This document shows positions 4,534-21,776 of a DNA stretch of 27,268 nt, one piece after another. Source of the stretch: a virus; the IMG/VR virus record IMGVR_UViG_3300021378_000136, positions 1 to 27,268 of that record. One strand, given 5' to 3'. Below the pieces are notes generated by a model. The model did not search any database. It saw only the letters and a list, made by a program, of their open reading frames with translations, and was not told where the DNA came from. How positions within the stretch are numbered: position 1 is the first letter of the stretch; every line of letters begins with the position of its first letter. The position numbers were made by a program, and so were the translations under genes.

Positions 4534-6519
4534 TTAAAATTCCAGTACAAACTTAAATTCCTCTCGGGAAAGTTCAGTTCTTGCTAATGGGAAGAAGTCT
4601 TCCATGAAGTACACTTCGCCTGTTCTTTGTATATAATCTGAATACACAACATTAGTGGCTACAGGATTATTTATTGTGATAAGCTGACCTGAATCTGAGC
4701 GAATAGGCAAATTAGGATTAAATGACGTATCACCGTTGCCTGATGTTGCTAAATTCTTATTTGGACCCATATATTCAGCTAAATAAACCGTATTGGCAGT
4801 TGCATCAACTTCATGTACTTGCGCAGTAAATGTTATTTCATTACTTCCATCTGTTTGTGTTATAACGCTATTTGCAGTTACTCTTTGATAGTCATTGGTT
4901 ACTATTGCGATTCTATTATCAAAAATTGCCGGGCTTGCACCTGTCGTAACTCCTGATCTCCACCCTGAACCAAGTTGTCTAAACTGTGGGCTTCTTACAA
5001 TACCAATAGCACCATAAGTATTTACTCCGCCAATGTTAGTATTATCGTCTGCGGTAATATATCCATAGAATGAAAAATGTTTACATTTAAATTCATCTAA
5101 TAAACTATATGCATGGCCACCGCCTGGCTCTATAATTGCTCTTGCCACTGCTCTTACATCTGTTCTATTTACATCAGCGGGATTAAATCCTGAAGGATCT
5201 ACTACAGCAGCTGTAATGTTGTTATAATCTTGTCCTCTATTTAAAACAGTTGTCTTTGTAATTCTTCCATTACTTATTGTAGGGATTGCGACTGCACCAA
5301 CACCATCTCCTTTAATATCAATTCTTGGAAAGATTTGTACACTTGCATTAAATACAACTCCTGCTTTATTTGGAGTCTTAACTGATGTAAATACGCCGCC
5401 TGATGTATATGCTCCAAATGCAGTTCCATCAACCGGTGTATTTAAAGTTTGTAATACATCATTAACATATGATCTTGAAGAGTGCAATGCAAATGTATCT
5501 GCTGTTAATACATCAACATAATAAGTTGGAGTACCATCACCTGTTACATCGTTAATCTCAGTCATACCTAAAACATCTGTAAAATTAACAGGTTGACCAT
5601 CTTCGAGATTATGCGCTACTGAAGTAATCACGACTGGGTTTGCTTGAGTTGCTCCGGTTACGTTTCCTCTATCAGGATTTGCTAATTCTGTTTTAACTCT
5701 AACTTCAACATTACCTGTGTTAGTATTATAGGAGTAATATTCAAGTTTAAATAAATTAGTAATAGCGCTTGAAGGATTTGTTAAGTAAATATATTGTCCA
5801 GTTAAAGTATTAATTGTCTGAGGCCAATTGGTTTCTGTAGGATTAATGAATAAAGTGGTAAGACCTTCAGTTGATGCTGTTGAGCTTGTTTCTAATCTTG
5901 GAGCTTGAGTTAAATAACCATTCCATAAATTATAGCCTTGGTTATCAAGAGGATTCGAGATTTCTACATCTGAAATACCACCACCCAAAATTCCTGTAGG
6001 ATTAGTATTAGCACTAGGATCAATTGGAATATAACCTAAAGCATTATAAGCTTCAAATTGTAAAGTAGTTAAACGATACATATACTTCCAAATGTATCCA
6101 TCTGCAGTTTCATATATTTGCGTTACATTAGCAGAATCAAAAGTTGGAGGAGATTCTGCAGTAGACCTTTGCGAATTGTCAATACATTTATAGACTCGAT
6201 AATCACCAGTGTCGTTGTCGTTTGGTCCAACAACTGCATAGAATTTTAATCCATCCAAATCAAGAGCATCATCGTACTGATCATATATTGATCCTTTCTG
6301 CCAAGGATAATACTTAATCATAAAATTAATATCGTTATTATTAATTCTTTTACCAAATAAAGTATTTTCTAGGAATTCATTTGACGAGACAGCCGAATCT
6401 ACTGGATTGAAATTTCCAATAGTTGATACGAACATATAATATTCTTCGTTAGCTTTAACGTCAGCCAAGAACATTCTATTAATATCCGTCTTAAAATTAT
6501 TTGTTAGAATTTCTGCCAT
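4534..6519 (-). CDS. 8: Baseplate wedge subunit gp8 homologue, enlarged (661 aa)
   Basis: This is the wedge protein that in T4 forms a dimer linking gp6/gp7 and gp10. The N-terminal third keeps gp8 landmarks: YYPWQKGSIYDQYDD (T4 has a similar RRDWGD...Y segment), VYKCID, a TAESPPTF-like loop and DGYIWKYMYRL (T4 DGYVWEYLFEI). The C-terminus TGEVYFMEDF...FVLEF matches the T4 SGEMIYMEN...ILFTF ending. T4 gp8 is about 334 aa, so this copy is about twice as long. The extra length is in the middle and includes a module at about residues 288-376 with NPVVITSVAHNLEDGQPV, GMTEIND, TADTFAL and YTSGG. I recognise this as a small repeat module seen in many phage tail proteins. The start is the first ATG of the open frame. 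Two AATAAATA boxes lie just upstream (6535-6554). Confidence 0.88.
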   Translation of the reverse strand: MAEILTNNFKTDINRMFLADVKANEEYYMFVSTIGNFNPVDSAVSSNEFLENTLFGKRINNNDINFMIKYYPWQKGSIYDQYDDALDLDGLKFYAVVGPNDNDTGDYRVYKCIDNSQRSTAESPPTFDSANVTQIYETADGYIWKYMYRLTTLQFEAYNALGYIPIDPSANTNPTGILGGGISDVEISNPLDNQGYNLWNGYLTQAPRLETSSTASTEGLTTLFINPTETNWPQTINTLTGQYIYLTNPSSAITNLFKLEYYSYNTNTGNVEVRVKTELANPDRGNVTGATQANPVVITSVAHNLEDGQPVNFTDVLGMTEINDVTGDGTPTYYVDVLTADTFALHSSRSYVNDVLQTLNTPVDGTAFGAYTSGGVFTSVKTPNKAGVVFNASVQIFPRIDIKGDGVGAVAIPTISNGRITKTTVLNRGQDYNNITAAVVDPSGFNPADVNRTDVRAVARAIIEPGGGHAYSLLDEFKCKHFSFYGYITADDNTNIGGVNTYGAIGIVRSPQFRQLGSGWRSGVTTGASPAIFDNRIAIVTNDYQRVTANSVITQTDGSNEITFTAQVHEVDATANTVYLAEYMGPNKNLATSGNGDTSFNPNLPIRSDSGQLITINNPVATNVVYSDYIQRTGEVYFMEDFFPLARTELSREEFKFVLEF

Positions 6520-6563: not shown

Positions 6564-8780
6564 TTAAGAAGAAAAAGATACCTTCTGTCGAGGCCAAGCG
6601 CGGCCTGATGTAGGTCTTCTTCCATTTGTTGTTTGTTCTGAACCACCTGCGATATATTTACCGCTTCCCATTCTTATTCCCCAAGGAATATGAACTCTTA
6701 ATGGTGGGGTTCCATATAATTCTGTTAAGTCTGCACCACCGTTTTGATAATCATTGTCTTTAACTCTATTTACTTCGGAGGAAGAATATAATTTAGTCGA
6801 AGATATATCTCCTGCGGAAGGTACACTACTAAAGTCAATTAAATTTTCTCCAATTAAATTTGACTTTGCATGTTTTATCATATGTGCTTTCAATTGAGCA
6901 ATAGATGGATATACGCCTCTCTGTGTAAACCAATGATCTAAGAATACTACTGCACAACCTGCCGCAACTGGAGCAGCACAACTTGTTCCAGAAAAGTAAG
7001 CCCACTTACCATCTTGGTATGTTGATATAGGATAGCTTGTCCATGTATATGCACCATAAGATGCAAAATCAACCGCTGGTCCTCGTGAACTATAATCATC
7101 CATTAATCTATTTGTATCATCTTGTTGGCAAGCAGCAATTGTAAACTGGTTATCACCACCGTCAATTTCAGATCTTAAACAGTAATAAGATAAGGGTGAA
7201 CCAGATACTATATCGGTAAACTGATTTCTTCCCTCACTATCTAAAGTATTTAATACTCCGTTTGCATTACTATCAATGTTAATTTTATTATTCCATCTTG
7301 GATCATCAGGATTAACCATTACATGAGCATTATTACCTGCACTCTTAAAATGATAAATTCCATTATAAGAATTATATTGGCCCATTATTGTATCAAAGAA
7401 TGTTGCTCTTGTTTGGTCAGGTACTGATATACACCAATTATCATTAGAAGTAATTGGATCTTGAATAACTCTTGGAACAAATAAGTTATTTGTAAATGAA
7501 GTTAAGTCTGAACCCCACCCAGAAGGTGTTGATGCCGATACAATAATTTGGCCAACCATTGAACCATGATACTCGCAAATATAATAGTATGTACCTGCTA
7601 CGCTTGGGGTCCAAGACATTGAAGAAGTACCTTGCCCAGATGCTCCTGAAACTTGACTTCCTGTTCCTGTCACGGATGCCGTTTTAAAATACATTGGGTG
7701 GCCACCCACTGCATTGTTTGTCATATTAATTGTATCACCAACAACCATATTAATTGTTGGGTCATTGCCTGAAACCGATCCGTTCCTATCTGTTCCACTT
7801 ACCTGATAATCACTTGATCCAGTTGCAGAAGCAGTAAAGCTTAAGCTTTGAGTGCTGCCTGTTCCTGTTGGTCTATTTACTGTTGATTGAACTCCAGTAT
7901 CTTTGTCATATACTTCAAGAGAATTAATTTGATCGCATTGATAAAATCTTTCGTGTTCAACTCCTGAATAACCCCATGCTCCAGTTACGACGGTTGCATT
8001 ACGAACTCCTGTAGCAGGATTAACTGCTTTAGTATTATGCCATTGAAGTACTGCATAATATGCATTCGTTGCGCCATCAGTTAAATATATAACTCGTAGT
8101 GTTGACTTTTTACCCCAACCACAATACTTACCACCTGCTGCACTTAGTACACCAATTGCGTGGTCTGAGAACCAATTTGTATTATTATTGGTTACTTGAT
8201 TATTTCTTGCAGAAGTAACTGAACTGTTGAACCCAGACCAATCCATAGGTACAAATTTAGAGTTATTAGAATCAAATTCTTCAAAATCTACGTGATCTTC
8301 ATGTCCTGCATTGTCTGTCGCAGGAGAACCTGCCTCAATAGCAACTATATCAACATAGTCACCAGCAAAGTTTGTTTTAACTGTGTCATCAAACTGATAA
8401 TCCCCAAAGTATCCTATAGGTGGGGTAGCATTTGCTGCGGGATTAAACTCACTTGTAAAATATGTATTCATTGAAGTATAGTCTTTACCATTAAGAGCAG
8501 TAGATGGCGAAAACTTTGTTCTATATGTTTGTGTATTACCTTCGTATCTTGGAGTACTTGTTGGATAAGATGTTTCTATTATGTTTCTTTCAGGTAAGCA
8601 TTCTATAACTTTACCGCTTGCTACAATTATTTCTGCTTCGTCTTCTGTTAACATCATACACAGTAAACCGTCAAATAGATCTGGGTTAAAGTTTAACTCC
8701 ATATCAACGGCTTCATTTTCCAATAGATCCGTTTCAGGAACTCCTGGCTGCATAACAATGTTATAAAGTTTCTTGGACAT
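6564..8780 (-). CDS. Subtilisin-like (S8) structural protein with an inserted cupredoxin domain
   Basis: 738 aa, in the gp7-gp8 interval of the wedge operon, so probably a virion protein. Residues about 10-70 resemble an I9 inhibitor/propeptide (LTEDEAEIIVASGKVIECLPE). S8 elements follow: DIVAIEAGSP at the position of the catalytic Asp motif, but with Glu149; SDHAIGVLSAAGG with His207; FKSAGNN with oxyanion Asn483; and FSGTSCAAPVAAG with Ser600. Between His207 and Asn483 lies a plastocyanin/azurin-like domain (about 310-416): GGHPMYF (His361) and YICEYHGSMVG (Cys402, His405, Met408), the full type-1 copper ligand set. The C-terminal ~45 residues (HIPWGIRMGSGKYIAGG, then GRRPTSGRAWPRQKV) look like a separate tail-protein module. 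A GAGAG ribosome site lies 7 bases before the ATG, within the end of the upstream gene. It may process baseplate parts or attack host surface protein; activity is unproven because of the Asp-to-Glu change. Confidence 0.82.
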   Translation of the reverse strand: MSKKLYNIVMQPGVPETDLLENEAVDMELNFNPDLFDGLLCMMLTEDEAEIIVASGKVIECLPERNIIETSYPTSTPRYEGNTQTYRTKFSPSTALNGKDYTSMNTYFTSEFNPAANATPPIGYFGDYQFDDTVKTNFAGDYVDIVAIEAGSPATDNAGHEDHVDFEEFDSNNSKFVPMDWSGFNSSVTSARNNQVTNNNTNWFSDHAIGVLSAAGGKYCGWGKKSTLRVIYLTDGATNAYYAVLQWHNTKAVNPATGVRNATVVTGAWGYSGVEHERFYQCDQINSLEVYDKDTGVQSTVNRPTGTGSTQSLSFTASATGSSDYQVSGTDRNGSVSGNDPTINMVVGDTINMTNNAVGGHPMYFKTASVTGTGSQVSGASGQGTSSMSWTPSVAGTYYYICEYHGSMVGQIIVSASTPSGWGSDLTSFTNNLFVPRVIQDPITSNDNWCISVPDQTRATFFDTIMGQYNSYNGIYHFKSAGNNAHVMVNPDDPRWNNKINIDSNANGVLNTLDSEGRNQFTDIVSGSPLSYYCLRSEIDGGDNQFTIAACQQDDTNRLMDDYSSRGPAVDFASYGAYTWTSYPISTYQDGKWAYFSGTSCAAPVAAGCAVVFLDHWFTQRGVYPSIAQLKAHMIKHAKSNLIGENLIDFSSVPSAGDISSTKLYSSSEVNRVKDNDYQNGGADLTELYGTPPLRVHIPWGIRMGSGKYIAGGSEQTTNGRRPTSGRAWPRQKVSFSS

Positions 8781-8783
8781 TTA

Positions 8784-10649
8784 TTAGCTCTCGAGTTTAA
8801 GTGCGGCGATCGTAACTGTTACTGTACCTGTTGAACCTGAATTATTTTGTATTGCTACAGGAACTTCAGTTTCTGAATCATCGAGCCAGCCCATAATAGC
8901 AGGTGTTACTTTAAACACTGTATTTGCTGAAGTAGCAATAAATTCTGCAATAACTCCAGAGCCGTCAGCGGGGTCTGTTCCTTGAACTCTTGATGCATCT
9001 GCAGTTCTTGATGATGTATCAGAATATATTCGTATCCATGATTCTTTTTCAGCAGTTACTTTTTGTATTGCGAATGATTTACCTAATGTAGCATATGCAA
9101 CACTTCCACTAGCACCATCAGATATAGAAGCGGTTGTTTCAGCTTCACTAACTCTACTTGCACCACTACCGCCGCTTGATGATGGGTCAGCAATAACAAC
9201 ATCACCAATCATTCCACTATGACTAGTACAAATATACTTATATGTACCACTTATACTTCCTGGTACTTTCCAATATAAAACACCTGATGTTTTGCCTTGT
9301 GCGTTTGAACCTGTTGTCCTAGTTCCATCAGGAGCGATATGAACAAGTCCTGTATTATATGCAGTACTTGCATCTGAACGAATTTCAAATGGATGCGAAC
9401 TGGTAACACCTGTTAAATCAAAGGCAATTGTTTCTCCTGCATTAACATATAGTGTTGGATTATCTGTTGTACCGTAATGATCTGAACGATATGCGGAAGA
9501 ACCGTTAGGTGTCATAACATGAACTGTACTTGCAGGGTATGCAATATCATGAACATCAAGATCTGCTGTATTAACTTCAGTTAAAGCGGCTAGTGTTGAA
9601 GAACCGCCACCGCCTGTTGCATCAGCAACCCAAGCATAATCAGAACCGTCCCAAGATAATATTTGATTATTACTTGCGCTTGAAACATTAAGATGAGAAT
9701 CAACATCAGAATTTGCATATTGTGTAATTGTACTTGATAGTTGACCTGAAGAAGCAGATAAGCCTGTTCCTGCAAGCATAGCAACAAAGTCTGTTACTGT
9801 TTCTTTCTTTGTATTACCTGAATCATCGGCATCAATAAATGCAATACTATCTGCGGTAACATTAAGAATTCCAGCATCAACACTATTTAAGTTAACACTG
9901 TTTGAACCACCGCCACCACCTGAGGCTGCAATAGTAACTGAATCTGTTGATGAATTAGCAGTTAATGTAATGTTAGATCCTGCGACAATGTTTAATGTAT
10001 CAGTACCTGATGCTTGTATATTAACACCACCTACTGCTACTGTTGTAAAAGCATCACCGCCACCTGATGACTGTGCAACCCAATCGTAATCTGAACCTGT
10101 CCATGATAAGACTTCATTACTTTGTGCTGCACTTGTATTTAAATGAGAATCAATATCAGTATTAGCAAATGAAGATCCACCTCCGCCTGAAGGTTGTTCT
10201 ACCCAAGTATAAGTACTATCTCCATTTGTCTTAAGAATGTAATCAGCTGTTTCTGAATTCGTAACATTATTTGCATAGACATGAGGAGCAAGAGGGTCTG
10301 TATAATTTAATATTGTACCACCAGAAGTATCTGCTAAAAGCTTTCTCCATGAACCGTGGGCATAATACAAAGAACCTGTACTATGTGCATGGCCAATAGC
10401 ACCATGATATACACTTGGATCAATTGCTAATAGCTCTGCCTCTGTGTTATATAAGAATGATACTTTATGCGGCTTACCAATTAAATCAAGTGCACCAGCA
10501 TTATCGAATAGGTCAATTGGGTTCTGGGAATTACCCAATGCTAGGTATAACTCATTAAAGTTATCGTTTGTTTTATCGAATGCATTCCTTAACGGATCAC
10601 CTGTTCCGTCGTTTGCGGATGCACCGATGTTAATTACTTGCTTTGTCAT
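8784..10649 (-). CDS. Fibre-like virion protein with a C-terminal-half cupredoxin domain
   Basis: 621 aa. The N-terminus INIGASANDGTGDPLRNAF...NDNFNELY is the recurrent start of many phage fibre and baseplate-attached proteins. Residues about 140-350 are low-complexity with Gly-rich linkers and two similar units (ANTDIDSHLNTSAAQSN..LSW at about 160 and ANSDVDSHLNVSSASNN..LSW at about 310). Residues about 390-485 form a cupredoxin: SHPFEIR with His419, then TYKYICTSHSGMIGDVVI with Cys474, His477 and Met480. The last ~120 residues (SWIRIYSD, SRTADASR, TDPADGSGVIAEF, then VTPAIMGW) match a C-terminal beta domain I recall from cyanophage fibres. It sits directly before the S8/cupredoxin gene, 3 bases from it. 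An AGGAAAA ribosome site precedes the ATG. Probable role: peripheral baseplate or short-fibre protein contacting the host; a copper or redox role is inference only. Confidence 0.75.
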   Translation of the reverse strand: MTKQVINIGASANDGTGDPLRNAFDKTNDNFNELYLALGNSQNPIDLFDNAGALDLIGKPHKVSFLYNTEAELLAIDPSVYHGAIGHAHSTGSLYYAHGSWRKLLADTSGGTILNYTDPLAPHVYANNVTNSETADYILKTNGDSTYTWVEQPSGGGGSSFANTDIDSHLNTSAAQSNEVLSWTGSDYDWVAQSSGGGDAFTTVAVGGVNIQASGTDTLNIVAGSNITLTANSSTDSVTIAASGGGGGSNSVNLNSVDAGILNVTADSIAFIDADDSGNTKKETVTDFVAMLAGTGLSASSGQLSSTITQYANSDVDSHLNVSSASNNQILSWDGSDYAWVADATGGGGSSTLAALTEVNTADLDVHDIAYPASTVHVMTPNGSSAYRSDHYGTTDNPTLYVNAGETIAFDLTGVTSSHPFEIRSDASTAYNTGLVHIAPDGTRTTGSNAQGKTSGVLYWKVPGSISGTYKYICTSHSGMIGDVVIADPSSSGGSGASRVSEAETTASISDGASGSVAYATLGKSFAIQKVTAEKESWIRIYSDTSSRTADASRVQGTDPADGSGVIAEFIATSANTVFKVTPAIMGWLDDSETEVPVAIQNNSGSTGTVTVTIAALKLES

Positions 10650-10683: not shown

Positions 10684-13600
10684 TTAATAAGTTATACTGT
10701 AATTATCTTCTAAGTATTTGTTTACGAGGTTTCTCATATCAGCAGAAGTAGTATGTCCTACTGCATCGTTCAAAAATATAACGTCTCCGTAGTCAACGAG
10801 GAATGAATTTGTTCCATACGATGTACCACTCGATTGGCTACCTGAATATCCTTGTGCTTGAGCAAACGCATATGCACTATTTGGAGCACTCAAGTGAGTC
10901 ATACCTGTAAAGTTAGCACCACCGTTATATGGAATCACTGTATCTAACGTTCCATTTAATTGTACTATTTTTCTTTGAGGTATTGGGTTTTTAATTGCAT
11001 TATATCCATCATTAGCATATGCATCACCCGTTAGTTCTTCATCTGCTGGATAAAAGAAATAACCACCTCTATATTGATCATCATTAGTTTGTGATCCACC
11101 ACATATAATAACATCAACTGCTGAGTCAGTTATTTCTACAGCTGCTCTTAATGCAAGTGCTCCACCATTTGAGAATCCCATAATTCTAAACTTAGTTGTA
11201 TCAACATTATTATAAAGTTTCAGTTTAGTGATTAAATCATTTAACATTTCAATATCAGGGCCGTTGCTTGGCTCATTTGAAATATTCCATGTATCATTAT
11301 AACCGTCTACTGCGATTAATACATGTCCTGGTAATACGGAAGCATTTTGAGCAATCATACCTGCAGCGTTACCGCCTGCTCCATGTAGTAAAATAGCAAC
11401 TGGGTAAGGAGCCGATCCTGATGTAGGCATTTGCACTGTTACTTCATAATCAAAGAAACCTTGGCTCCAATTTTTTGTTATGTCCAAATCTGTCGATGCA
11501 GTTAAAGTTAATCCGCCGCTTCCGCCTGGTGTATGGTCAGCAGAAACATACGAACTGTCTGAAGTATAGTTTGTAATTGAAGCTCTTAAGTCTGCAATAT
11601 CAGCAATGTCTAATGGTGAACCTCCACCTTGATCATTAAACAATCTCAAGAACCTTGTCTTAACGTCAGATCCAACAAAAGATTTGAATATAAAGTCACC
11701 AAACAGTTTACTACCTGCTAAGTGAACATTTTCTTTAAGTGCAGTTTCGTATTCCTGTAATGGCATTGATGATTTAATCTGATAAGAATATTCTTGGAAG
11801 AAATCACTATCTTGTATTCTTGAACCGCTATCATAATATTCTTGTGTATATGCGTTGGATGTACCTGTCACTGTATAAAGAATGTCTGCCATTGATGTAT
11901 ACCAAGCCTGCTGTTTAAAGTTAGGCTCAATCACATTGTCAAATCGTATTTGACTTTGTGGTAGTAATGTATTTTCTCCGTTAGCAATTTTTGTGAATTC
12001 TACAGCATCAGCAGAATCAATACTTCCGCTTGAATTAATATCACCGTATGCAAATCCGTCAGGTGCAAGTGACTCTGCCCAGTTTTCAAACTCTAACGCA
12101 ACACCACTTGGCAATGAACTACTTACAGCAACTGCAGTAATTGATGTGGCAAAGTCCGATAGAATTGAAATAGAATCAACTGATGTTTTACTTAATTGTT
12201 TGTATCCAGCAAGCTGAGAATTTTCGCCAGCCCAATAGCCTTGAGTAACACCTTGCGTCTTAGCTCCGATAGTTCCTTGAGAAACAGGAAGTCCTGTTGG
12301 ATCCAAAGGATCTATAAGCTGTCCTGGATATCCGTCAACATAACCAAAGCCTGAAGATAATATACTTACTTCTTTAACTCTGCCAATCGCAAATTCTGTT
12401 TCTGCATTAATCTCTGCATTATTACCGTATGTGTCAGTACCTGAGTAATCGTTTGAAACACCAGTTACATTATAAATTGGAGTGGATATTCCTGACCTAA
12501 TAATATCAAGACCTGTAAACCCATAATAATCAAATGGTACAACTGTAATTGCTCCTTCGTCATTATTTACTGATAGTACTCTGCCTCTTACGGTGCCTGC
12601 TTGTTCTTTTACAATATCTCCAATCGAGAATCCACTTGCTTCGGCAACATCTTGGAATCTTATAATTTGATTTCTTCTTTCAAAATTTTTCATTACAGAA
12701 TCTTCAGCTCGAGCATATACATCGTTTTTGTATTCAGAGCCTGGATTAATATTATCAAATCCACTTATTTCACCAATTGTAAAATCGGTAATCGCAAATG
12801 CATCATTAAGCGCAGTATTTAAATTAACTGGTGAAGCGGTGCCTGACATAGCAGCGGTTGATTCATAATCAGCTGCATTAATGACAGTAGGTAAATGTGG
12901 TGTAATTACATCCTCTATGAGAGAAGCAACTGATGCATTCTTTAAGGATGTTACTTTTACATCGTTTACATCTGAAGTATCAGGATAAAGATCACCTGGA
13001 GAAGTTTCATTCTTTTCTGTTACTCCGTTTCCATTAGCACCAATGACAACTGTAATGTTGCCGCTTGCTCTTACTGTTGTGATTGTACTTGACCCAGTGA
13101 AGGCTAACCCAGTACCCATACGAATACCAACAGTGCTTTTGTTTTGTCCTATAACCGTACCAGAATTGCCTGAGCCGTCTTGTACTGTTTCACCAATGAT
13201 AAACCCTTGATTATAACCAGTTTCAGAGTTATCACAAATGATTGATTGGTTAGAAACTAATAATCTCGCATTATCAATTGTATAGCCATATCCACCGTCA
13301 ATTACTTCGTAGTTAATCTTACCTGTAATTTCGTTTGTGATATCAGTAACGATTACTTTTCCTGCGTAGGCATTGTCTTGTTTTACATCAAGTATCTCGC
13401 CAACTCTTCTGCCTACTAATCCTTTTTGTGATGTATCAACAGTAAATGAAGATAGTGAACCGTTAATTCTTCCGAAGTTAATTTGCTCGCCGCTTATTAC
13501 ACTAACGATATCTTCGTATCTTGAAAAGGTTCCTTGTATATCATCTAGATATATCACAGGAGTTTTAATTCCATTTAAAATAAAGAAGTTAACCGATCTT

Positions 13601-14139
13601 ACGGCGGCTCGAGCTTTTGTTTCAGATCCCTCAACGTTTTGAGATAATAAATTAAAGTAAGTATATTTCTTATTCGTAATAGATAAGAACTCATTTTGGT
13701 TTGGAAGCATTTGTAAATAAACACCTTGCCTCCATTCACTATCAGAAATCTTTGCCATTTTTTCAGAAGGATATATGATTTCAATATCGAACTCTTGATA
13801 GAAAATAGCAAAGAATAATTCTATCCCTCTTTTTGTACCTTTTGAGCGATACATATCAAGAATGTTTTTAACAATAAAAGAAAGTATATCTGTCTTAAGA
13901 GGAAGATCAGCAAGAAACTTTTTCTTAAAGAATATTAACATACTCGTAATAGTAGTGTCAATGTCTTTTAATTCAAACAGTCTTCTCTGATTATAGATTC
14001 CTTGATTTTGTTGTGTTTCACAAAACTTATAGTACTCTTCAACAAGAGAAACAAGCTCAGGACCGTTCTCACGATATATCGCAGGAAATTGCTGTCTTAC
14101 AAACAGTGATATATTTTTTTCTATTTCACCCTGAGGCAT
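10684..14139 (-). CDS. 7: Baseplate wedge gp7 homologue fused to a C-terminal alpha/beta-hydrolase
   Basis: 1151 aa, at the gp7 position directly after gp6. Residues about 25-130 (ELVSLVEEYYKFCE, DILSFIVKNILDMYRSKGT, RGIELFFAIFYQEFDIEI) parallel the C-terminal half of T4 gp7 (FCEAYIQYLSDGY, FFESRSYDFYSTKGIEASYKFLF). Residues about 770-820 (QEYSYQIKSSMPLQEYETAL, AGSKLFGDF) parallel the T4 segment YYVMKIKSNLPSS..HPVGFGF. Residues 700-711 form a dockerin/EF-hand-like loop (D700, N702, S704, G705, I707, D711). From about 880 to the end is a PHB-depolymerase/LpqC-like hydrolase: oxyanion motif HGAGG at 919-923, nucleophile elbow GFSNGG with Ser990, acid in NGTLDTVIPY (Asp1066), and His1129 in AVGHTT. 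No stop or internal ribosome site separates the halves. It probably puts an esterase on the outer wedge; the substrate is unknown (surface ester, polymer side group or polyester are options). Confidence 0.85.
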   Translation of the reverse strand: MPQGEIEKNISLFVRQQFPAIYRENGPELVSLVEEYYKFCETQQNQGIYNQRRLFELKDIDTTITSMLIFFKKKFLADLPLKTDILSFIVKNILDMYRSKGTKRGIELFFAIFYQEFDIEIIYPSEKMAKISDSEWRQGVYLQMLPNQNEFLSITNKKYTYFNLLSQNVEGSETKARAAVRSVNFFILNGIKTPVIYLDDIQGTFSRYEDIVSVISGEQINFGRINGSLSSFTVDTSQKGLVGRRVGEILDVKQDNAYAGKVIVTDITNEITGKINYEVIDGGYGYTIDNARLLVSNQSIICDNSETGYNQGFIIGETVQDGSGNSGTVIGQNKSTVGIRMGTGLAFTGSSTITTVRASGNITVVIGANGNGVTEKNETSPGDLYPDTSDVNDVKVTSLKNASVASLIEDVITPHLPTVINAADYESTAAMSGTASPVNLNTALNDAFAITDFTIGEISGFDNINPGSEYKNDVYARAEDSVMKNFERRNQIIRFQDVAEASGFSIGDIVKEQAGTVRGRVLSVNNDEGAITVVPFDYYGFTGLDIIRSGISTPIYNVTGVSNDYSGTDTYGNNAEINAETEFAIGRVKEVSILSSGFGYVDGYPGQLIDPLDPTGLPVSQGTIGAKTQGVTQGYWAGENSQLAGYKQLSKTSVDSISILSDFATSITAVAVSSSLPSGVALEFENWAESLAPDGFAYGDINSSGSIDSADAVEFTKIANGENTLLPQSQIRFDNVIEPNFKQQAWYTSMADILYTVTGTSNAYTQEYYDSGSRIQDSDFFQEYSYQIKSSMPLQEYETALKENVHLAGSKLFGDFIFKSFVGSDVKTRFLRLFNDQGGGSPLDIADIADLRASITNYTSDSSYVSADHTPGGSGGLTLTASTDLDITKNWSQGFFDYEVTVQMPTSGSAPYPVAILLHGAGGNAAGMIAQNASVLPGHVLIAVDGYNDTWNISNEPSNGPDIEMLNDLITKLKLYNNVDTTKFRIMGFSNGGALALRAAVEITDSAVDVIICGGSQTNDDQYRGGYFFYPADEELTGDAYANDGYNAIKNPIPQRKIVQLNGTLDTVIPYNGGANFTGMTHLSAPNSAYAFAQAQGYSGSQSSGTSYGTNSFLVDYGDVIFLNDAVGHTTSADMRNLVNKYLEDNYSITY

Positions 14140-19733: not shown

Positions 19734-21129
19734 ACTGATCACCTCGTTCCCATTCATATTTTAATATTTCGCAAGTTGTATCTAATCTATTTTCTTTCAT
19801 ATCATGGGCAACTGTAGATACTAAATACTTTCCTGATAATCTTTCGTTTTGTTCTTGACTTAATGCAACATCAGGTTCTTGTGTAATTACATTTAATACA
19901 TCACCTGGTTTCAAATCAAGTCTTCCTTCTAATGAGATCTGAACTCTTGAGTTTTGTATATGATGATTATACGCTATTCTATTTTGAATAATCTCTACAA
20001 ACTTTTGAGGTTCTCTTGGTACTTGTCCGTCTTTAGTTTCTAATGTATCATCTTGCCAATCTCTAAACACTACTTGTTGAGGAGCGTTCTCAGATGTAAA
20101 TGTTTCTTTAATAAATTTATCAGAATGAACAGCTCCTGCTGATGATGTCTTTATTGTGCCTTTCATTCCAACAAATTTTTGTTTTGTATAATCAAAATCA
20201 TAATACTGACGATGATGATTTGTAAAGTCAATTTCTAAAACTGAATTACGATATCCGCCACTTGTCATATCACTAATAGTATCTGCGTGATTAGAGTTTT
20301 GGAATCCTAAAATTGTTTTAACAATTAGATTACCTTTTCTTGGATCTTGTTCTGTAAATGGTAAGTAATAAAAATCTTTTACTTTATTATCGTTAAGCGC
20401 AGCTCTTTTTAATAACCATTCATCAGTTACCCAATAATAACCATCGTATGTTTCAAAGAAACGATACATATTAGACGGTGATTGATTATTAGATAAAGAT
20501 TTAGATGCTAAGAATCTCATTGCCTGCGCAGGAGAATAGTCAGGAATAATAGTTCTCATATTACCTGATGAATCTTCAATATAAAATCGTCTACCTCTAT
20601 CGCTCGTTAATTTATATCTATTACTTCCTATAGGCATTTCTTCAACAAAAGAGTTAGTACCTTTATCAGTATCGTATACTAGTTCTTTGTCTTTATTATA
20701 ATACTTTTTAAATATATCTTTAGCAGCATATGAACCTAATCTATTTCTATATGCAGTTTTAATATTTCTTATACCTGCTTCAAAAGTTGTCTTCGTTACA
20801 AAGTGTAAAGTATAAATGTAAGCATCACCACTATCACTTTTAGATACATTATTAATCTTAGTGATTTGTCCTTTAAGAGTAAGTTCTGTTTGTAAGTCAT
20901 GTCCTTTTAAAATTAAAGTAATTGTTTCTTCGGCTCTTAACGGATGATTATGTAACATACCTATACTATCGAATACTTGAATAGATCCAACAATCCCAGC
21001 CTGATATATTGACTGACGAATACTTACTTCAGCAATTAATGCAGCGATAGATGCCTTTCTTCCTTCAGGCGATTCTATTTCAGCTTCTTCAACTGTGCAA
21101 TATGATGGATTAAACGTTTCACTTGTCAT
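19723..21129 (-). CDS. 27: Baseplate hub subunit gp27
   Basis: 468 aa (T4 gp27 is about 391). gp27 forms the trimeric ring that joins the gp5 spike to the tube. Matching landmarks are VSIRQSIYQAGIVGSIQVFDS (T4 TMRDSLYGRNEGMLQFYDS) near residue 35, EETITLILKG after it, and the late LKPGDVLNVI...GKYLVSTVAHDM, which parallels T4 LTPGVKIIF..FYVDEVIHEL. It is followed by gp5 with an overlap of about 11 bases, as hub genes often are, and its ATG overlaps the stop of the 85-aa gene (TAATG). The extra length is mainly in the middle (about residues 160-340), including aromatic-rich stretches such as FFETYDGYYWVTDEWLL. Assignment rests on these motifs plus the gp27-gp5 gene order. Confidence 0.85.
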   Translation of the reverse strand: MTSETFNPSYCTVEEAEIESPEGRKASIAALIAEVSIRQSIYQAGIVGSIQVFDSIGMLHNHPLRAEETITLILKGHDLQTELTLKGQITKINNVSKSDSGDAYIYTLHFVTKTTFEAGIRNIKTAYRNRLGSYAAKDIFKKYYNKDKELVYDTDKGTNSFVEEMPIGSNRYKLTSDRGRRFYIEDSSGNMRTIIPDYSPAQAMRFLASKSLSNNQSPSNMYRFFETYDGYYWVTDEWLLKRAALNDNKVKDFYYLPFTEQDPRKGNLIVKTILGFQNSNHADTISDMTSGGYRNSVLEIDFTNHHRQYYDFDYTKQKFVGMKGTIKTSSAGAVHSDKFIKETFTSENAPQQVVFRDWQDDTLETKDGQVPREPQKFVEIIQNRIAYNHHIQNSRVQISLEGRLDLKPGDVLNVITQEPDVALSQEQNERLSGKYLVSTVAHDMKENRLDTTCEILKYEWERGDQYDR

Positions 21130-21386
21130 TAGTCAGTACTTACACTATTTTTAAATTCTCGTGTTACTTGATTTAACATTGTGTTATCAAACAGCAGGAT
21201 TTCTTTTTTGTTTTCATTAAGCTGAGTTTCATACTCAAAGATACGATAAGGTACCCAATCGTCAGGAATGATTCTTTTAATAATAATCTTGTCACCTCGT
21301 TCAGTACGCATAATCACACGGTCTTCACGACGAAGATAAATTGTTCGGAAAGATTCCGGTGCTAATATAATATTGTCAATTGCCAT
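21129..21386 (-). CDS. Small unknown protein (85 aa) between gp53 and gp27
   Basis: I do not recognise a family. The protein is strongly charged with alternating beta-like stretches (YLRREDRVIMRTERGDKIII, DDWVPYRIFEYET), then a Lys/Glu stretch and DNTMLNQVTREF at the C-terminus. No signal peptide, membrane segment or catalytic motif is seen. It is real by context: AGGAA ribosome site, a 9-base gap after gp53, and a stop that overlaps the gp27 ATG. Translation is probably coupled to gp27, so a small hub or wedge component or an assembly factor is a fair guess, no more. Confidence 0.75.
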   Translation of the reverse strand: MAIDNIILAPESFRTIYLRREDRVIMRTERGDKIIIKRIIPDDWVPYRIFEYETQLNENKKEILLFDNTMLNQVTREFKNSVSTD

Positions 21387-21395
21387 TCGTTATTC

Positions 21396-21776
21396 CTAAA
21401 CTGTTTTTATATAGTATAAAATATTTGTATCAATGTTGGGGTTCTTTGTCCAATCAATGACATCTTCACCAATCTCACCGGATTGTGCTGTGTACTTTGA
21501 AACTAAATAATCGTTAAACGTTTGAGTATCCATCGGCCACTCGTAATACGGATCTATGATATTATTTGCCATATAAATTAACCAAACATATTCAACTGAA
21601 CCATAATAATCTAAAGCAATGTCTTCGGCTCTTTCGTTTTCTTTAACTGTGTATGGATAATAAACATAAGGATTATTTGATACTGCTCTTACAAACGATG
21701 ATCTTCGAGTAATATCACGTACTCTTTTTCCTTCGTAGTTTATAATTGGAAAGTTTTCAAAATATTTAGTTGCCAT
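21396..21776 (-). CDS. 53: Baseplate wedge subunit gp53
   Basis: 126 aa, shorter than T4 gp53 (about 196). gp53 is a LysM-like clamp that locks neighbouring wedges in the inner baseplate together with gp25 and gp6. The LysM-like core is visible: YYPYTVKENERAEDIALDYY, then GSVEYVWLIYMANNIIDPYY, which parallels T4 YYIKGSPRPEELANAIYGNPQLYWVLLMCNDNYDPYYGW. The end is trimmed relative to T4. GGAGAA precedes the ATG, inside the last codons of gp48. Its place between gp48 and the hub genes fits. Confidence 0.88.
   Translation of the reverse strand: MATKYFENFPIINYEGKRVRDITRRSSFVRAVSNNPYVYYPYTVKENERAEDIALDYYGSVEYVWLIYMANNIIDPYYEWPMDTQTFNDYLVSKYTAQSGEIGEDVIDWTKNPNIDTNILYYIKTV

Follow-up and report, generated by a model that had tools for sequence, protein, structure and literature searches.

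Introduction

Described proteins comparable to the one reported here include the 'subtilisin-like serine protease' of phage S-H9-1 (QPB08157) and its homologues in S-CAM4 and ACG-2014e/j. A homologous S8 scaffold is present in the 'tail fiber / putative proximal tail fiber protein' of phage S-CAM1 (YP_007672920, PHROG 15006). No paper on phage S8-cupredoxin proteins or on phage tail cupredoxins was found in the literature searched, in which most subscription journals were not covered. For metals on phage tails, the 'Ferrojan horse' idea, which concerns iron, has been put forward for the tail fibre of an Alteromonas phage (PMC11705849).

The stretch of DNA analysed here, referred to as the window, comprises 27,268 nucleotides (positions 1 to 27,268 of IMG/VR virus record IMGVR_UViG_3300021378_000136). 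It encodes a protein in which a cupredoxin is set inside the S8 domain, not C-terminal to it as in the S-H9-1 group, and in normal strand order, not permuted as in S-CAM1. The architecture is a new combination of parts already known; what was unexpected is the gain, loss, exchange and permutation of the cupredoxin in the S8 scaffold.

Results

A phage S8-fold protein is interrupted by a cupredoxin

A sequence-only reading of the window had described an S8 protease with a plastocyanin-like copper domain inserted between its catalytic His and oxyanion Asn. The features of this gene are as follows, in order along the protein.

6564–8780, minus strand: S8-fold (subtilase-like) protein with inserted cupredoxin; ATG start, 738 aa
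8592–8780, minus strand: beta-alpha-beta-beta-alpha-beta domain at the inferred subtilisin-prodomain position, residues 1–63 (predicted secondary structure)
7875–8486, minus strand: S8 domain segment 1, residues 99–302 (VIA alignment to S8 proteases, model range 99–712)
8334–8336, minus strand: Glu149 at the catalytic Asp position (alignment of strand 143–149)
8160–8162, minus strand: His207, catalytic His (invariant in alignments A1 and A3)
7536–7874, minus strand: cupredoxin cassette at 'site 2', residues 303–415, normal strand order (PF00127, own HMM 204 bits, structure)
7698–7700, minus strand: His361, putative copper ligand (65/65 distinct domains)
7575–7577, minus strand: Cys402, putative copper ligand (65/65 distinct domains)
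7566–7568, minus strand: His405, putative copper ligand (65/65 distinct domains)
7557–7559, minus strand: Met408, putative copper ligand (65/65 distinct domains)
6666–7535, minus strand: S8 domain segment 2, residues 416–705 (PF00082 and structure prediction)
7332–7334, minus strand: Asn483, oxyanion Asn (invariant column)
6981–6983, minus strand: Ser600, catalytic Ser in GTSCAAP (invariant column)

The S8 assignment was supported by family searches and by structure prediction. Peptidase_S8 (PF00082) exceeded its cut-off in a six-frame search (33.6 vs 21.8 bits, residues about 468–640) and was absent from the hmmscan listing of the whole interrupted protein; a cupredoxin-free sister (L061) scored 41.7 bits over 333–525. 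A phmmer search against the PDB matched a subtilase at residues 588–639, and the protein matched PHROG 15006, 'tail fiber protein' (E 1.8e-50). The AlphaFold2 model built from a 34-sequence alignment (mean pLDDT 82.3, pTM 0.77) had S8 proteases among its Foldseek matches and was aligned by VIA with keratinase 5wsl_A (Z 27.5, rmsd 3.0, 269 residues). In this model strand 143–149 ends with Glu149, His207 is at the start of helix 206–216, and residues 1–63 show the strand and helix order of the subtilisin prodomain. No Pfam match to Inhibitor_I9 was obtained in the window protein; the model of a relative with two permuted cupredoxins (L117) matched the Tk-subtilisin propeptide in Foldseek (TMt 0.75 over 71 columns).

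The insert (residues 303–415) is placed by the model between strand 262–267 and helix 460–471, before Asn483. Nine strands were predicted in 312–415, with pLDDT about 90 over most of the insert, and Foldseek matched it to rusticyanin (1rcy, E 2.2e-5) and plastocyanin (2plt, E 4.5e-5), so that the eight-stranded beta-sandwich criterion of cupredoxins was met by predicted strands and Foldseek matches. Copper-bind (PF00127) was over its cut-off (22.1 vs 21.2 bits, residues 336–414), as it was in the relative L026 (23.8 bits); L010 and L012 remained under it (15.5 and 15.8 bits). With phmmer, amicyanin from the PDB was matched at residues 339–414, with all four H/C/H/M ligands in register.

The ORF and every residue number of the sequence-only reading held, and the seven residues H207, H361, C402, H405, M408, N483 and S600 are invariant columns in an alignment of 8 sequences (A1). 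The interruption of the S8 domain between His and Asn was likewise confirmed by sequence, family searches and structure prediction, and the outcome named as a refutation, an insert that is not a beta-sandwich, did not occur. The complete type-1 copper set held as a ligand set, aligned column by column with that of amicyanin. The label 'plastocyanin-like' was too narrow; the amicyanin (TIGR02657, 24.5 vs 110.2 bits) and plastocyanin (TIGR02656, 24.4 vs 87.85 bits) models matched equally, and both failed their equivalog cut-offs by far. The insert is thus predicted to be a cupredoxin with a type-1 ligand set; the convergence of the ligands is inferred from the alignment, and there are no metal data. 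Chance motif matches were ruled out by the family cut-offs, the structure and the ligand conservation, and a chimera or assembly artefact was ruled out by the many independent contigs that show the same architecture.

The copper ligands are invariant

Ligand conservation was scored in 65 distinct normal-order domains, some in S8 proteins and some in other proteins of phages. All four ligands were present in each of them, while the rest of the domain drops to about 30–40% identity; besides the ligands only Y400 and P362 were fully conserved. The loop reads CxxHxxM in 64/65, which is the amicyanin spacing, that of plastocyanin being CxxHxxxxM. Three connector cupredoxins read MHP at the His ligand, with the ligand still present by column. 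Inclusion required that a match reach near the end of the profile, where three of the ligands lie, and forms without that end would escape the count. Purifying selection on the copper site is the simplest reading of this pattern; that a metal is bound is inferred, and its identity is unknown.

Glutamate occupies the position of the triad aspartate

The His, Asn and Ser motifs of an S8 protease held, and the triad Asp, which the sequence-only reading had left unnamed, corresponds to Glu149. The strand ending in this residue ('VDIVAIEAG', 143–149) aligned with 'VDVVIVDDP' and 'VDVVIMDTG' of other phage S8 proteins. The position was Glu in every row of two MAFFT alignments (34/34 in A3 and 17/17 in A4), in both of which His, Ser and the oxyanion Asn were invariant (H207, S600 and N483, 34/34 in A3). 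These alignments were used for the count, and not the profile alignment of the scaffold tree, because rows of S-CAM1-like proteins were partly misaligned around the permuted insert in the latter; there, the Glu column was gapped in 10/67 rows and read D in 2, and three rows were less than half filled. Where the cupredoxin of a phage S8 protein is C-terminal (L010, L015, S-H9-1 and S-CAM4), Asp is kept at the equivalent position, as judged by reading the sequences by eye.

Other hydrolases work with Glu-His-Ser triads. No paper on a Glu-His-Ser subtilisin was found in the literature searched, which excluded most subscription journals. Since Glu149 replaces the triad Asp, proteolytic activity of the window protein is not to be assumed, and the protein is described here as an S8-fold homologue with a variant triad, not as a canonical active subtilase; its peptidase activity is untested.

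The cupredoxin is gained, lost and exchanged as an in-frame cassette

Scans of viral contigs for relatives yielded 14, 77 and 25 loci, with some contigs recurring, and the relatives were classed with S8-scaffold and cupredoxin profiles built for this analysis. ORFs truncated at a contig end were omitted, as were those with profile coverage below 480 or a best score below 100, which left 67 distinct full-length relatives; the whole C-terminal-cupredoxin group is thereby excluded. A normal-order cupredoxin at site 2 was found in 32 of the 67 relatives (L086 being counted here, like its near-copies L084 and L085), so the architecture, which the sequence-only reading did not know from characterised proteins, recurs. 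The S8 protein had no cupredoxin in 23/67, a permuted one at site 1 in 8/67 and permuted ones at both sites in 4/67.

Site 1 lies between strand 143–149 and helix 206–216, that is, between the Glu and the His. Beta-to-alpha connections of the subtilisin fold sit on the active-site side, and both sites fall in such connections, which would put the inserts on the active-site face; this placement rests on the predicted model and on general knowledge of the fold, and no distances were measured.

Occupancy of site 2 required at least 10 changes on a scaffold tree from which the columns next to the sites had been removed. The tree was built with a quick method and had support below 80 on 15/56 inner branches; if only its starred branches are counted, the normal-order class still requires at least 6 changes.

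Close pairs showed the individual events. L026, with a cupredoxin, and L069 and L070, without one, differ by a single in-frame, domain-sized gap (NRP-[domain]-GWG vs NRP-GG-GWG); one flank is 98.4% identical over 1728 bp, and the other is 97.8% identical over 3819 bp to L069 and 98.1% over 1608 bp to L070. At the same NRP codons, L112 and L114 differ from L107 by the permuted domain, with flanks about 93–95% identical. Exchange was seen between L025 and L034–L036, with 90% identity in the scaffold and only 38–39% in the cupredoxin, and in the opposite sense between L008 and the window protein (scaffold 45%, cupredoxin 77%). These comparisons of presence with absence and of exchanged domains show that the cupredoxin is a mobile in-frame cassette, gained, lost and exchanged whole. 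The connector gene, too, varies by in-frame pieces: a 117-bp segment (L026:3058-3174) is missing in L069 and L070, beside an AGGTGG repeat.

The cupredoxin is dispensable to the scaffold, as the 23/67 relatives without one in the S8 protein indicate. Many of these carry one on a neighbouring protein (for example L059, L061–L066, L068–L073, L091–L096 and L098–L100); L122 has one in neither place.

The origin of the cassette was also addressed. A recent copy from the connector of the same genome was ruled out, the two cupredoxins of the window being 31% identical. A search for a bacterial source by scanning genome contigs with A3 gave 57 pattern matches and no relatives (0/57), a weak result obtained with two short patterns, and no plasmid source was found by tblastn with the permuted relative L117. 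When the window cupredoxin alone was used as the query, 18 loci were obtained, almost all of them on contigs that the set included before.

Further variation was observed in the S8 proteins. Near scaffold position 115, between the prodomain-like part and the S8 domain, L006 (L006:1207-2157), L066 and L077 contain an insert of about 310 aa whose family is unknown; that of L006 had no Pfam or PHROG match. In L012–L014 the cupredoxin is found at yet another place in the S8 protein, nested after the catalytic Ser region and ahead of the C-terminal end. The S8 gene of L074 (L074:772-2654) is split into two ORFs in the contig.

Circularly permuted cupredoxins keep the ligand set

Two profiles were used to score strand order, one covering the N-terminal part of the cupredoxin and the other its last two strands. 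The normal order was found in 105 matches, the last part came first in 29, and 4 showed the N-terminal part only, 3 of these being truncated by a contig end. The 29 permuted domains represent 13 distinct ORFs, all of them S8 proteins of the S-CAM1 group. In them the Y-W-Y-Q-C..H..M strand precedes a short linker, after which come the N-terminal strands to and past the His ligand. Permutation with retention of the ligand set is thus shown at the sequence level, and is the most surprising part of the result.

Natural permuted cupredoxins with all four ligands are present in S-CAM1 (L016:3674-3994) and in L101–L120 and L125; S-CAM1 is a cultured phage, and its protein is annotated only as a tail fibre protein. 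When the S-CAM1 domain was searched by tblastn against phage records, 7 of the 35 matching records were S-CAM1 copies, matched end to end, and the other records among 30 rows were matched mainly in the N-terminal part. The model of the double-permuted L117 had a pLDDT of 56, with the insert blocks mostly at 60–89. Its top 50 Foldseek matches were S8 folds and propeptides, without a cupredoxin row, in a search by a sequential aligner poorly suited to a permuted domain. No paper on naturally permuted cupredoxins was found in the literature searched, and the passages bearing on the subject describe no permuted copper-site cupredoxin.

The S8 gene lies among baseplate wedge genes

The sequence-only reading had placed the gene in a wedge operon, which held: the genes from gp25 to a gp8-like gene are all on one strand, in the order gp25, gp6, gp7-like, gp9/10-like connector, S8 ORF and gp8-like. 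The neighbouring features are as follows.

8784–10649, minus strand: gp9/gp10-like baseplate-to-fibre connector, upstream (PF07880 at residues 3–41, PHROG 677)
9189–9527, minus strand: second cupredoxin, in the connector (own profile; 31% identical to the S8 insert, all four ligands)
8790–9182, minus strand: C-terminal domain of the connector, residues about 490–620 (conserved partner domain of the S8 gene)
4534–6519, minus strand: gp8-like baseplate wedge protein, directly downstream (PHROG 438, E 1e-45)

The set examined for gene order comprised 116 S8 ORFs whose 5' end is intact, some of them redundant copies. Directly upstream of 102 of these, the ORF encodes the 130-residue connector-type C-terminal domain at its end. 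In 13 of the remaining 14 no upstream ORF lay within the set limits, and in one (P-SSM2) the upstream ORF lacked the domain. The upstream protein of S-CAM1 is short and shares only this domain with the connector. The association suggests that the S8 protein is attached to the tail; that the domain holds or assembles it at the baseplate is inferred from gene order. Its place beside connector and wedge genes is that expected of a T4-type connector-attached fibre or tailspike. A gp8-like gene followed the S8 gene in 53/67 relatives and in 0/12 S-CAM1-like members with a cupredoxin. This gene context lends weight to the suggestion that the protein may belong to the virion, which is not shown; no virion proteomics was found.

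Among cyanophages, tail spikes, connectors and further large proteins also carry cupredoxins. A comparison of gp6 gave Sinorhizobium phages as the nearest records (39% identity), with phiN3 ranked first and phiM12 among the nearest; in phiM12, gp7 is followed directly by gp8, with no connector or S8 gene between. The host may possibly be a marine alphaproteobacterium, a guess that rests on this gp6 similarity.

Other wedge proteins of the window showed further features. The gp7-like protein (10684-14139, minus strand) has a C-terminal alpha/beta-hydrolase domain (residues about 876–1146) nearest to polyhydroxyalkanoate depolymerases, another enzyme domain on a baseplate protein. The gp8-like protein (4534-6519, minus strand) contains an E1_FCCH domain over its cut-off (residues 299–381, E 6e-9). 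The gp53-like gene (21129-21776, minus strand) appears as two ORFs matching PHROG 232 at 3–111 and 152–192, either a split gene or a frameshift.

Discussion

The architecture, the ligand invariance, the presence or absence and exchange of cassettes, the permutation and the gene order are shown, and the fold is predicted by the model. By a modest margin, we favour the explanation that T4-type marine phages bear on their baseplate a subtilase homologue, fibre- or tailspike-like, with exchangeable metal-binding recognition domains in loops of its active-site face; virion location, proteolysis and copper are untested. In this explanation the C-terminal domain of the upstream gp9/10-like connector would hold the S8 protein, and the S8 fold would be turned to the host surface, where it would bind, and probably cleave, a surface polypeptide. 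The two loops would be landing sites for cupredoxin domains, and recombination would add, remove and swap whole in-frame cassettes, normal or permuted, by which stability or recognition would be tuned at adsorption. Because the type-1 site is retained in every cassette, a metal, copper or a substitute, would be required for the cassette to work. The connector attachment, the location in the virion, activity with a Glu triad, the identity of the metal and the recognition role are all inferred. Several observations count against this host-contact reading or limit it. The Glu in place of Asp may mean that enzyme activity is low, changed or lost; cupredoxins occur on many other phage proteins, so that their role need not concern the protease; the scaffold stands without a cupredoxin in 23/67 relatives; and the C-terminal-cupredoxin group, with its domain outside the S8 core, speaks against active-site proximity as a general rule.

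Four rival explanations were considered, which are not mutually exclusive. The cupredoxin may be a structural decoration, a stable Ig-like beta-sandwich whose fold is stabilised by the metal and which has no role in proteolysis or recognition. This remains possible, and is supported by the S8 scaffold that is intact without a cupredoxin and by the occurrence of cupredoxins elsewhere, in the window's own connector and in cyanophage tail spikes, connectors and large proteins; however, the four ligands are kept in 65/65 domains at about 30–40% identity elsewhere, and the swapping of whole cassettes between near-identical scaffolds is more typical of host-contact selection than of passive fillers. 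A second possibility, of similar standing, is that the protein is a dead subtilase serving as a binding scaffold, with Glu149 as the mark of lost activity. The Glu in every row of A3 (34/34) and A4 (17/17) and the Asp kept by S8 proteins with a C-terminal cupredoxin favour this view, but His, Ser, the oxyanion Asn and much of the Ser and Asn neighbourhood are invariant, and dead enzymes usually lose some of these. The working Glu-His-Ser triads of other hydrolases also weigh against it, although no such subtilisin was found in print.

Two further explanations appear unlikely. Metal-dependent attachment, in which tail copper would be recognised by a copper or electron-transfer protein of the host envelope as a copper counterpart of the 'Ferrojan horse', draws on the exchangeable domains in tail genes, whose type-1 ligands do not vary, and on the iron precedent proposed for the Alteromonas phage tail fibre (PMC11705849). 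Against it, no host partner is known, the host itself is unknown, and other metals may fill the site; in addition, there is very little free copper in open seawater or in the cytoplasm. In the other explanation, the protein would be a maturation protease that processes baseplate or fibre proteins within the cell during assembly and does not act at adsorption. The prodomain-like N-terminus and the place among wedge genes would agree with this, but surface domains that are polymorphic and swapped serve no evident purpose in such a protease, the annotation of the family is tail fibre, and a T4-type baseplate is not known to need a processing protease.

A bolder form of the host-contact reading is also unlikely. 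It holds that type-1 copper domains are an exchangeable host-facing recognition module in the loops of a Glu-His-Ser tail protease, that evolution has made permuted copper domains for the same loops, and that metal loading or redox state of the insert could gate binding or cleavage at adsorption. Independent of the reading preferred, the combination is unusual: a subtilase among baseplate genes, an invariant metal site on a domain that is gained, lost and exchanged, and a natural permutation. Pairs of phages that differ in this domain and have 98% identical flanks offer a natural experiment for an effect on host range. The finding also makes it testable whether copper on phage tails acts in ocean host recognition, as has been proposed for iron.

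Comparison with known systems

The fold of the window protein is that of peptidase family S8 (keratinase, proteinase K, aqualysin and PCSK9), from which it differs by Glu in place of Asp, the cupredoxin insert and the phage baseplate context. The insert shares its predicted fold and its four ligands with amicyanin, plastocyanin and rusticyanin, and the CxxHxxM loop with amicyanin in particular, while its equivalog scores for amicyanin and plastocyanin are far under the cut-offs. Unlike these blue copper proteins, it is set in another domain, is not a free electron carrier and has permuted versions.

Among phage proteins, the S-H9-1 and S-CAM4 proteins also combine S8 and a CxxHxxM cupredoxin in one chain, with the connector C-terminal domain encoded upstream; in this group, about 30% identical to the window protein, the cupredoxin is C-terminal and not inserted, and Asp is kept, as read from the sequences. 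The S-CAM1 protein, the best match in the viral structure library, has the homologous S8 scaffold with Glu at the place of Asp, the same connector domain upstream and a cupredoxin as well; its cupredoxin, in contrast to that of the window protein, is circularly permuted and occupies site 1, and site 2 is empty.
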